Positions 7,888 through 11,092 of a DNA stretch of 11,092 nucleotides are shown in pieces. Numbering within the stretch: the first letter of the stretch is position 1; each line of letters starts with the position of its first letter. This stretch comes from Candidatus Curtissbacteria bacterium RIFCSPLOWO2_01_FULL_38_11b (GTDB taxonomy: Bacteria; Patescibacteriota; Microgenomatia; Curtissbacterales; GWA2-41-24): assembly GCA_001774995.1 (NCBI GenBank), contig MFBO01000011.1:4029-15120 (forward strand). The letters are read 5' to 3'. The notes under the pieces were generated by a model. The model searched no databases. It had not been told where the DNA came from and saw only the letters and a list, made by a program, of their open reading frames with translations. A program made the position numbers and the translations under genes.

Positions 7888-8580
7888 CTAGCAGTCTTTA
7901 CCTAACTGGGGGGACTCTGGAGAATCAGAACTCTGCTCGCAGGCAGGATCGGCTTGATTTGGTTCAAGAGTTGACCTATGGCTCCTGGTCGCAGGGTCGG
8001 ATTCATTTCCGTCAAGAATGATTCCACCCCAAAGCTCGTCAAGCCTTGCATTAGGATTATCATCATCGCTAACTTCTTTATTCAAATACCCATTTACGAT
8101 ATTAAAATCATCCTGCGTCACATGCCCGTTCAAGTTAATATCGTTCTGGGGACTTGCTGGTAAAAGACACAGAAATTCTCGCATTACATCGATGTCATTT
8201 TCTGTAATTCTGAATTTACCATCCTCGCCTCTTTGCCCGTCTCTATCAAGTCCAGGTAGCCAATCTATTCCTTTTTGTCTGCGGGCATCAAAAAGATTAA
8301 AAACACCGTCGCCATTTTTGTCCACCAATTCAACATTAACAAACGGTACGTTGTGAGGTTCAAAAACAGAAGTAGGAGTTGGACCTACAGTTGCAGTTGG
8401 TGTTGGAGAACTTTCTCGGCTGTCACAAGCAGCAACTGCAAGTAGAACAGTAGCAAAAACAGATCCACCTACAAGAGCTATTAAACCCCACCTTTTTCTG
8501 ATTAGCAAACTTTCTTTCTTAGAGCTTACCTCACCAAGATCTTCAATTTGTCTAATTGTATGTTCGTGTTCTCTATCCAT
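7888..8580 (-). CDS. Putative lipoprotein with three dockerin-like calcium loops
   Basis: No known family is recognised over the whole length (230 residues from ATG 8580). Residues 1-30 are charged (DREHEHTIRQIEDL), followed by RKRW and a hydrophobic segment ending in the lipobox-like VAAC with Cys52. Next comes a Pro/Thr linker (SSPTPTATVGPTPTS) and three EF-hand/dockerin-type loops: DKNGDGVFNLFD (87-98), an expanded DRDGQRGEDGKFRITEND (112-129) and DINLNGHVTQDD (147-158). The tail after about 170 is polar and Ser/Pro-rich and ends in Cys230. ATG 8580 is chosen because GGTGA stands 5 nt before it and overlaps the stop of the peptidase gene; frames also open at TTG 8601. A TTG at 8508 would give a classic short lipoprotein signal (MLIRKRWGL...). 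It is the last gene of the cassette and should sit on the outer face of the membrane. Confidence 0.72.
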   Translation of the reverse strand: MDREHEHTIRQIEDLGEVSSKKESLLIRKRWGLIALVGGSVFATVLLAVAACDSRESSPTPTATVGPTPTSVFEPHNVPFVNVELVDKNGDGVFNLFDARRQKGIDWLPGLDRDGQRGEDGKFRITENDIDVMREFLCLLPASPQNDINLNGHVTQDDFNIVNGYLNKEVSDDDNPNARLDELWGGIILDGNESDPATRSHRSTLEPNQADPACEQSSDSPESPQLGKDC

Positions 8581-8585
8581 AAACT

Positions 8586-8590
8586 TCACC
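8586..8590 (-). promoter_or_regulatory. Ribosome binding site deciding the start of the downstream lipoprotein
   Basis: GGTGA on the - strand lies 5 nt before ATG 8580 and includes the TGA stop of the S8 peptidase gene. It favours ATG 8580 over the in-frame TTG at 8601 and implies coupling of the two genes. It is one of few plausible ribosome sites in the window. Confidence 0.5.
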
Positions 8591-10346
8591 ACGCTGGGCA
8601 AAAAAGCCCATCCCTTTGAAGAATAGCATATACGTCTCCGAGATCTATTCTGCCGTCCGTTCCAACAGGTGCGATATCATATAGAATGTTGTATGTACTA
8701 GGTTGGTTAAAGCGAAAGGCAACGGATTGGGCATCCAAAGTATTAATTTTAAGGTCATTGTTAAAATCATATTTATGACAATTGCGCCACCAAAGCGTTG
8801 CCCACGCGTCAACCCGGCCATAACCTTGGTGATTCATATTTTTGCATTTCAAGTCTTCTCTGGTGATTTCCGTACTCTTTGGCAAAAAGCTAACTGTTCT
8901 ACAAAGTGCAGCTACTCCCGATATATAAGCTGCAGCCTGGGAAGTCCAACAACCTGACGAAGTATGTACCCCATTACCATCTGCATCAATTGCAGCTGCA
9001 GACAAACTTATTATTTCAGAACCAGGCGCTAAGATATCCGCATCGCTTTTACCACTTGATAGATTGCAAATAGCGTCTTGTGCATTTGTTGCGCCTACAC
9101 AAATTACATTTTGATGTCTTGCAGGATATTCACAGTCGCCCCGACCATCATTTCCGGCAGAGGCAACCAGAACTATACCGAGTTTTTCTCTTGCGTATTG
9201 CAAATGGAAATTTGTCAAAAAGCTATTGCTGTCGGTGTAACCGTAGCCAAAAGACATGTTTATTACTTTAATATCTAAATCTCCCCGATTAACCTCTCCT
9301 ATAATCCATTCAAAGGCTTTTCCAATCGCAGAATCAGAAACGGAAGCTCCAGCCTTTATCGGTATCAATTCTACATTTTGGGCCAGGCCTGCAATGCCTT
9401 TATCATTATTTGCTGTCGCCGCAATTATGCCACTCATAAGTGTTCCGTGGCCTTCCGTATCGTCAACATTTGAATAATCCGGATCTTGAGGAGAATCAAT
9501 GAGAATGTTCCTACGAGTACTGGATAAATTTTTTTGAATGTCGGGATGGTTGACATCAAGCCCGGTGTCAATTACAGCAACCTGAACTGGATTAGTTGCA
9601 CTGCCTTTTGTTTCCGTATACCATGTCTCCTCAATTCTAATTTGTCTATGACCCCACTGGTTTTGCCAATAAGGGTCATTGGTCATCAATTCACCAACGT
9701 GATTTTTGTAAGCTTTTTCAACATCGGACTCATTATTAAGCTGTTTTTGCAAAGCTTCAATGTTATTCGTATTTATTTTAATTTTATCAGTGTTTACCAA
9801 ATTGAAACTCTCCTTGGCGTTAGCATTAAATTTTGTAAAAATCGGACTTTTTTGTTGACTGACAACTCCTATTTTAAATTTAACAAGCAGCTCATCTGCG
9901 ACATACCCAAATGTTAACTCGGATGGATCATCCAATCCAAAAGCTGGTGCTTGTACTCCCTGTCCGACGTAAGTTTGTATAATATCCGCATCAGCTTGGG
10001 AAAGCACCCCGTCATTGTTCACATCAAGCCGTGGTTTATATGAATACTTACCCTCATCAGGACTCTCCAGACCTGCGTTAAACCTTACTAAATAAACATC
10101 CATGCTATCAATTTTTTTATCCCCATTAACATCAACACAAACAGGGCAGTTGACAGTTTGAGGAGGTGCCAGTAGCCTGGCGTCAACTAGATTAATAATG
10201 CCATCACCATTTTGATCAGTTATGGCCTGGGAAGTTGTAGCTTCTAAAGGTTTAGTTTTCTCCGTTAGCACGAAAAACAATGTTGTAATAGCCAGCCCAA
10301 ATGTTAGAAGGTATCTTATTCTGAGCGAGAAAATCCTAGCATACAT
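8586..10346 (-). CDS. S8 (subtilisin-like) serine peptidase with dockerin-like loops at both ends
   Basis: This is a secreted or surface subtilase of 586 residues. Order of parts: hydrophobic signal or anchor (about 11-28); three dockerin-type loops, DQNGDGIINLVD (44-55), DVNGDKKIDSMD (72-83) and DVNNDGVLSQAD (108-119), with a CPVC pair (67-70) between the first two; a fervidolysin-like propeptide region (about 148-220, ELLVKFKIG); the catalytic domain (about 225-485); and two more loops at 527-538 (DFNNDLKINTLD) and 562-571. Catalytic residues are Asp260 (VAVIDTG), His300 (EGHGT), the oxyanion Asn399 (SAGND) and Ser469. The serine block reads GCWTSQAAAYISGVAAL rather than GTSMAAPHVAGVAAL, but the Ser is kept. 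Paired cysteines (405/416, 466/482) could form disulfides. The ATG overlaps the stop of the upstream lipoprotein (TAATG). The substrate is unknown. Confidence 0.92.
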   Translation of the reverse strand: MYARIFSLRIRYLLTFGLAITTLFFVLTEKTKPLEATTSQAITDQNGDGIINLVDARLLAPPQTVNCPVCVDVNGDKKIDSMDVYLVRFNAGLESPDEGKYSYKPRLDVNNDGVLSQADADIIQTYVGQGVQAPAFGLDDPSELTFGYVADELLVKFKIGVVSQQKSPIFTKFNANAKESFNLVNTDKIKINTNNIEALQKQLNNESDVEKAYKNHVGELMTNDPYWQNQWGHRQIRIEETWYTETKGSATNPVQVAVIDTGLDVNHPDIQKNLSSTRRNILIDSPQDPDYSNVDDTEGHGTLMSGIIAATANNDKGIAGLAQNVELIPIKAGASVSDSAIGKAFEWIIGEVNRGDLDIKVINMSFGYGYTDSNSFLTNFHLQYAREKLGIVLVASAGNDGRGDCEYPARHQNVICVGATNAQDAICNLSSGKSDADILAPGSEIISLSAAAIDADGNGVHTSSGCWTSQAAAYISGVAALCRTVSFLPKSTEITREDLKCKNMNHQGYGRVDAWATLWWRNCHKYDFNNDLKINTLDAQSVAFRFNQPSTYNILYDIAPVGTDGRIDLGDVYAILQRDGLFCPAW

Positions 10347-11092
10347 TATTCTATAGTCCCAGTTGATATCCTACCAACAAGCGAAACACTTTCTTCTTGT
10401 AAGAGCTCTTCAATTAACTCACCGAGAGTTTTTTTCTCTAGAACTTCTTCAGGTATGGTGATATATGCATTAGTTACTGTTCCACTAGGCAAAGGTAGAT
10501 TATATTTCTTAGAAAGTCTTTTAATTTCTTCGCTATTCGTACCAGGTTTTATTTGGACTTCAAGTCGATTTGAAACCCAACCATAATAAACTTCACTAAG
10601 TTTAAGACCGCCTTCTTCGGACGGCACGATTCTGCCAATTTCTGCTTTTACCGCCTCGACATCTTTGTCGTCAATTTTGCCAAACGGCTCGGCGGGATCA
10701 AATCTTGGGTGGAAAGGAAGTTCTTGATCATCAATTCTTCTTTGAATTAAGTTAACATCCATTTGGGTAATTTCGCCTGAGGCGTTAATATCAAGACATG
10801 CCAGACATTCCTGGCCTTTTCGTTGTAACCGCAAGTCAATAATATTAATTATCCCATCCTTAATTATCCCATCCCCATTCTCATCAACCTCATTGAACCT
10901 AACCAGAGGACCTTCTACAGGCGTTGAAACTGGTTCTTCTATTGAAGTTGGTGGGGTATAGATTGGTTCTTCAATTGGTGTTTGAGAACCTCTCTTTTCA
11001 CCACATGCAGTCAAAATGATTCCTGCAATAATAGGCCCAGCCAGCGCTAAATGAAACACCAAGTTTTTATTTGGTAGTTTTTTTTCTGGGTT
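10346..11092 (-). CDS. Lipoprotein with dockerin-like loops and a stand-alone subtilase-propeptide-like domain (5' end outside window)
   Basis: Numbered from an in-frame TTG at 11062, this is 238 residues, but the frame stays open to the window edge (reading NPEKKLPNKN before that TTG), so the true start is probably upstream. A hydrophobic segment ends in the lipobox LTAC with Cys20, followed by a Pro/Thr/Glu linker with IEEP repeated (30-50). Three dockerin-type loops follow: an expanded one from Asp60 to Asp76, DINASGEITQMD (91-102), and a degenerate one at 122-134, with a CLAC pair (86-89). The C-terminal 160-230 (RLEVQIKPGT, EEIKRLSKKYNL, LGELIEELLQEESV) resembles the fervidolysin-type propeptide that precedes subtilase domains, but no peptidase domain follows. 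The layout copies the N-terminal half of the next gene's product, with which it overlaps by one base. A role as inhibitor, folding helper or anchor of that peptidase is inferred. Confidence 0.75.
   Translation of the reverse strand, partial: NPEKKLPNKNLVFHLALAGPIIAGIILTACGEKRGSQTPIEEPIYTPPTSIEEPVSTPVEGPLVRFNEVDENGDGIIKDGIINIIDLRLQRKGQECLACLDINASGEITQMDVNLIQRRIDDQELPFHPRFDPAEPFGKIDDKDVEAVKAEIGRIVPSEEGGLKLSEVYYGWVSNRLEVQIKPGTNSEEIKRLSKKYNLPLPSGTVTNAYITIPEEVLEKKTLGELIEELLQEESVSLVGRISTGTIE
10845..10874 (-). repeat. Perfect 15-nt tandem duplication inside a calcium-loop coding region
   Basis: TTAATTATCCCATCC occurs twice without a gap (10845-10859 and 10860-10874, + strand reading). In the lipoprotein it adds five residues, so the loop reads DENGDGIIKDGIINIID where the peptidase paralogue has DQNGDGIINLVD. 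The frame is kept. Confidence 0.9.

Follow-up and report, generated by a model that had tools for sequence, protein, structure and literature searches.

A three-gene subtilase locus

The 11,092-nucleotide stretch of DNA analysed here (the window) belongs to Candidatus Curtissbacteria bacterium RIFCSPLOWO2_01_FULL_38_11b, whose genome (0.54 Mb, 77.5% complete) we call the own genome, and it ends where its contig, C11, ends. At that end lie three adjacent, co-directional open reading frames (ORFs) on the minus strand, in the order C-B-A, which, by their domain content, encode a subtilase and two likely lipid-anchored proteins made from parts of that subtilase. Gene C (10346..11092, minus strand) encodes a lipoprotein-like protein with a calcium-loop module and a C-terminal copy of a subtilase prodomain, and its 5' end is cut by the contig edge; gene B (8586..10346, minus strand) encodes the subtilase, of 586 amino acids; and gene A (7888..8580, minus strand) encodes a lipoprotein-like protein with the module only. 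The C and B frames have a single base in common, within TAATG at 10348-10344, and the stop codon of B (8588-8586) lies 5 nt ahead of the likely ATG of A at 8580, a start favoured because the database copy of A (P0123) has the 230 amino acids that fit it. A TTG at 11062 is probably not the start of C, since C is cut by the contig end and its homologues P0121 and P0122 begin further upstream. A previous sequence-only reading of the window had described three nearly overlapping minus-strand genes with an S8 peptidase domain in the middle one only, and both statements hold.

B matches the S8 family PF00082 at 145.2 bits, over its cut-off (E = 3.4e-42), and the catalytic domain (8895..9587, minus strand) carries D260, H300 and S469 in invariant columns of a 27-row alignment; we take these to be the Asp/His/Ser triad known from subtilisins. 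Ahead of it lies a cis prodomain resembling Fervidolysin_NPro (residues ~140-222; 9681..9929, minus strand), which matches PF22148 over residues 147-212 at 24.8 bits against a cut-off of 21. By these profile matches B is a subtilase with a fervidolysin-type prodomain. Like fervidolysin-type subtilases (PF22148 plus PF00082) it has both domains over their cut-offs; unlike them, it has an extra N-terminal module and a C-terminal dockerin-like stretch, and a second prodomain is encoded in trans at the locus.

That second prodomain is in C. The last ~85 residues of C are a divergent copy of the prodomain of B (hhalign probability 95.3, with profile and structural alignment in agreement), at residues ~155-238 (10349..10600, minus strand), and the chain ends near the terminal position of the propeptide. 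In the structural alignment C ends opposite the final residue of the BPN' prosegment, the residues of C there being poorly modelled. PF22148 has no match at E <= 1 in C, P0121 or P0122, and a Foldseek search with the C model returned no match at E <= 0.001. In composition, C is the N-terminal half of B, module and prodomain, placed on a lipoprotein-like signal and lacking the enzyme. The sequence-only reading had C as a module-bearing protein beside a protease; the module is there, but the prodomain points to protease control instead. That reading had missed three elements, namely the fervidolysin-type prodomain of B, the divergent version of it in C and a further dockerin-like stretch at the C-terminus of B (residues 523-583), and with them its centre of gravity moves from the module to the prodomain copy, while part of its account stands.

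The module itself is shared by all three proteins, as had been proposed. It occupies residues 50-146 of C (10625..10915, minus strand; CxxC at 86-89), residues 38-138 of B (9933..10235, minus strand; CxxC at 67-70, invariant in 27/27 aligned rows) and residues 84-178 of A counted from 8601 (8068..8352, minus strand). Among 36 domain pairings compared by hhalign, the modules of B and C reached a probability of 98.6, B and A 97.6, and C and A 94.7, while the N-terminal module of B and its own C-terminal stretch (C523 to C583; 8598..8780, minus strand; also supported by conservation) reached 92.8; two other pairings gave 31.7 and 25.4 and the remaining 29 were all <=2.3. Profile searches concur, the A profile matching C at 3.7e-9 and the C profile matching B at 4.1e-13 and A at 3.8e-7. 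At the level of sequence profiles, module sharing is thus beyond chance and B is dockerin-like at both ends. The smaller shared details noted earlier (FDAR/VDAR/IDLR, the CxxC pair in C and B, HPRFD/KPRLD) are all present, but three DxNxDG loops in each gene was too strong a statement: the strict pattern occurs once in C and twice each in B and A, counts reached in 3, 0 and 0 of 2000 composition shuffles, respectively. A loose pattern gives one, four and two, the fourth loop of B being C-terminal; the third loop of C and the second loop of A are stretched. Structure prediction was unusable for the C module (pLDDT under 50) and for A (mean pLDDT 36).

Both flanking proteins have lipobox-like cysteines and Pro/Thr stretches, judged by eye, in agreement with the sequence-only reading. 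In C the cysteine is that of LTAC (11003..11005, minus strand; residue 20 if the TTG at 11062 is taken as residue 1) and is kept in 3/3 aligned rows; in A it is that of VAAC (8425..8427, minus strand), invariant in 16/16. The homologue alignments used throughout exclude P0001 (own B), P0123 (own A) and P0138 (155 amino acids). Lgt matches in the own genome fall in two open frames side by side (G000:C16:6685-7342), which may reflect a frameshift or an assembly error, and LspA was not found in this 77.5%-complete genome.

Recurrence of stand-alone prodomain genes

Prodomain profile A4 matches 73/373 sampled genomes of the class, and in frames shorter than 300 amino acids it matches at 11 places, six of which are stand-alone prodomain genes (L094-L098 and L101). 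The other five were rejected, L099, L102, L103 and L104 as truncated, broken or contig-end subtilases and L100 for want of a prodomain ORF. A second search, in which five of these six served as queries against a 379-genome sample of the phylum, added three more (L135-L137). These three are the small-frame matches that span the prodomain; the remaining small frames align chiefly with the anchor and linker part of the model. These counts are lower bounds, since A4 misses C itself at E <= 0.001. The Pfam prodomain cut-off is exceeded by eight of the nine genes, L101 falling below it (18.2 against 21).

In six of the nine cases (L094-L098 and L136, in six sampled genomes) a subtilase follows immediately on the same strand, the spacing, with mechanically assigned starts, ranging from a gap of 75 nt to an overlap of 50 nt. 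These subtilases have prodomains of their own, over the cut-off in L094, L095, L096 and L098 and as a below-cut-off match in L097 and L136. No subtilase was present within the stretches retrieved around L101 and L137. Since most subtilases in the retrieved loci lack such a gene, the layout of a stand-alone prodomain gene followed by a subtilase recurs but is uncommon; the present locus adds to it the shared module and the module-only gene A. The L094 protein, lipoprotein-like with a Pro/Thr stretch, corresponds to C without the module; by eye it has a lipobox-like motif, and L095, L097, L135 and L136 have N-terminal hydrophobic segments. When the nine stand-alone proteins, C, P0121 and P0122 were compared, with last-strand anchors picked by eye, the chain ended exactly 12 residues after the anchor in 7/12 and 11-15 residues after it in 11/12, with L137 ending 18 residues after it. 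Two of the nine genes call for separate remark: the contig of L135 ends 205 bases downstream of the stand-alone gene, which is probably a seventh upstream-of-subtilase pair at a contig end, and L101:1889-2392 is best described as an anchored, stand-alone prodomain-like gene.

A tree of 39 prodomains (75 columns) is poorly resolved, 7/36 inner branches being well supported, and it holds ten of the twelve stand-alone proteins, own C and P0122 having been dropped because their match was too short or missing. Several stand-alone copies nevertheless stand beside neighbouring cis copies, and the well-supported part of the tree requires the stand-alone and cis states to have switched at least twice.

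B with its N-terminal module forms a closed family of 27 clusters in the protein database, own copy included, at E <= 6.5e-120, and the next subtilases follow at 1.3e-33 (among the best 120 of 7996 scored candidates). Subtilase matches at E <= 1e-30 occur in 93/373 sampled genomes of the class, and among the matches listed only that of the own genome reaches the N-terminal module, the others beginning no earlier than position 130. When 55 relatives were searched more loosely, one other genome matched the module weakly (60-135, E = 3.2e-4) and one matched the C-terminal stretch, as expected from generic dockerin-like loops. C-type proteins were found among the 373 genomes in the own genome, plus two weak matches at module positions only, and in two database proteins (P0121 and P0122), the former 61% identical over the length of C. 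A-type proteins were found in 1/379 genomes of the phylum sample and in 16 database proteins besides the own copy. The longest contig recorded is 10076 bases for P0121 and likewise for the B homologue P0022, suggesting that their genes lie on one contig; in the database records, no A homologue shares such a figure with any B homologue. The B homologue P0019 starts like A homologues (24/47 residues identical to P0124), a resemblance that suggests exchange between neighbouring genes.

A probable propeptide acting in trans and its alternatives

We interpret C, at a probability of about 0.55, as a membrane-tethered inhibitor or chaperone acting in trans on B, with the module possibly co-localising C, B and A. 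Subtilase propeptides fold their enzyme and then inhibit it, as described in the portions of PMC6993865 and PMC10580911 drawn on here, and given this biochemistry a propeptide that is encoded separately and has a free C-terminus would be expected to bind the mature enzyme as a product does. B would be a secreted, membrane-attached subtilase, and C and A would be helper lipoproteins built from its pieces. C would bind the catalytic domain of B in trans, like a stand-alone propeptide inhibitor of the I9 type, with the free end of its chain placed in the active-site cleft in the manner of a product. B would thereby be kept inactive and/or helped to fold at the membrane, up to the removal or degradation of C. 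The membrane tether would let C keep B silent at the surface of the producer, and the module could hold the three proteins together or on a common partner, so that C would be more concentrated around B. With the module only, A might serve as adaptor or competitor. The low-confidence end of the C model lowered our confidence from 0.58 to 0.55. As to generality, among 64 subtilase ORFs of at least 300 amino acids in the retrieved loci only six have an upstream prodomain gene, five of these six pairs lying in loci that were retrieved because of those genes, so that no frequency is claimed.

The closest known proteins by design are the stand-alone subtilisin propeptide-like inhibitors of MEROPS I9 and their mimics (POIA1, yeast peptidase B inhibitor, Arabidopsis SPI-1, TgMIC5 and Plasmodium SUB1-ProM), which, as is proposed for C, are separate propeptide-fold genes whose products act on subtilases, SUB1-ProM also lying beside subtilase genes (PMC6993865, in part). 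Those named in that part of the source are all eukaryotic, whereas C is a predicted bacterial lipoprotein with the protease's own calcium-loop module. A literature search limited to titles and abstract starts of open-licence papers, and so weak evidence, found no bacterial stand-alone subtilase propeptide inhibitor among the papers listed; searches of open-licence papers on dockerins in Patescibacteria (CPR), on subtilisins with dockerin and prodomain and on trans propeptides, equally weak as evidence, listed nothing describing this arrangement, the last of them yielding two Plasmodium papers. The nearest functional parallel we found is the dentilisin operon prcB-prcA-prtP of Treponema denticola, as covered by the consulted part of PMC8167434: it too combines a subtilase with two further lipoproteins in a three-gene operon, PrcB interacts with PrtP, and PrtP protein is undetected in a non-polar prcB deletion. 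It differs in that the protease gene is last and PrtP itself is acylated, and that part of the source mentions no propeptide copy or calcium-loop module. B was rejected as a dentilisin PrtP (79.7 bits against an equivalog cut-off of 300).

The strongest competing explanation, though we doubt it, is that the modules plug C, B and A into a shared scaffold as dockerins do, the prodomain of C being incidental. Residues 72-127 of B exceed the Dockerin_1 cut-off of 22.9 with 48 bits, as in type I dockerins, and Pfam cohesin proteins occur in two sampled genomes (L100:265-1119 and L081:1219-1932), that of L081 adjoining a protein with dockerin-like loops and that of L100 a subtilase fragment ending in such loops (by eye). 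However, A (12.7 bits) and C (16.8 bits) fall below the cut-off, the module departs from type I dockerins in its three loops and CxxC, PF00963 cohesin has no match at E <= 1 in the 77.5%-complete own genome, a query with the L081 cohesin found none there either (a search without a positive control), and the conserved prodomain of C is left unexplained. The modules of the three proteins are related by sequence profile, but "dockerin" in the docking sense is weak. The data agree with the surface or envelope protease cassette of the sequence-only reading, built on a shared calcium-loop module; the words "complex" and "calcium-dependent" in that proposal are presumptive. Cohesin-dockerin pairs may exist in this bacterial group, as L100 and L081 suggest; genes for both are described in Shapirobacterales (PMC9123182, in part), and for one Patescibacteria epibiont a dockerin protein is counted in the essential set (PMC10633639, in part). 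Two more proteins of the own genome match Dockerin_1 (L009:1670-2437 and L010:1751-2566), one just over the cut-off and one below it with a TSP3 match.

Somewhat less probable still, the module could be no more than a spacer, stabilised by calcium, that holds each protein away from the membrane and assembles nothing. The anchors and Pro/Thr stretches precede the module in C and A as such a role would have it, and the PF00963 search just described found no partner domain, but A is little more than anchor and module, which is odd as a spacer for nothing, and the CxxC is kept in B and C. It also seems unlikely that C, and perhaps A, shields the surface of the producer from a B that acts on neighbours or on a host cell, so that the prodomain copy would be an immunity-like lipoprotein and not a maturation factor. 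C does look lipid-anchored and separate from B, as, by eye, do stand-alone copies elsewhere; yet the anatomy is identical to that expected of the in-trans inhibitor or chaperone, no target is indicated, and the position of C upstream of and coupled to B also fits a folding role. That C and A are functionless leftovers of partial B duplications, as tandem placement, the homology of C to the N-terminal half of B only and the module-only content of A might suggest, is very improbable given the identity of C to P0121 with an invariant cysteine and end, the conservation of A across its aligned rows with its cysteine, and the recurrence of stand-alone prodomain genes with their repeated stand-alone/cis changes.

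If C does act on B in trans, bacteria would have a propeptide-in-trans switch of a kind for which the consulted part of PMC6993865 gives examples from fungi, one plant and apicomplexan parasites only, and the locus would show how a tiny cell can carry a surface protease safely; as such genes recur ahead of some subtilases, the idea could be tested in several genomes. More tentatively, small-genome bacteria might control surface subtilases by a separately encoded, membrane-tethered propeptide copy; in the present lineage the shared calcium-loop module might then clip this inhibitor, the enzyme and a third lipoprotein into a switchable surface unit.

Minor features

At the prodomain junction of B, E219 is kept in 24/27 rows; the cut would fall after E219 or M221 depending on which homologue is taken as guide, so no site is claimed, and a Protein Data Bank (PDB) search with the junction region gave nothing useful. 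Pattern matches on viral contigs (17 for profile A3, 97 for profile A1) yielded none confirmed as relatives, and on genome contigs at least two of 584 pattern stretches for profile A1 were confirmed, the two listed both being distant subtilases. A second subtilase of the own genome lies close to a contig end (G000:C14:48-863). Within the locus, the first calcium loop of C contains a 15-bp tandem duplication (10844..10873, minus strand; 14/15 identical), and a GtrA-type gene lies downstream of A, 78 nt away.

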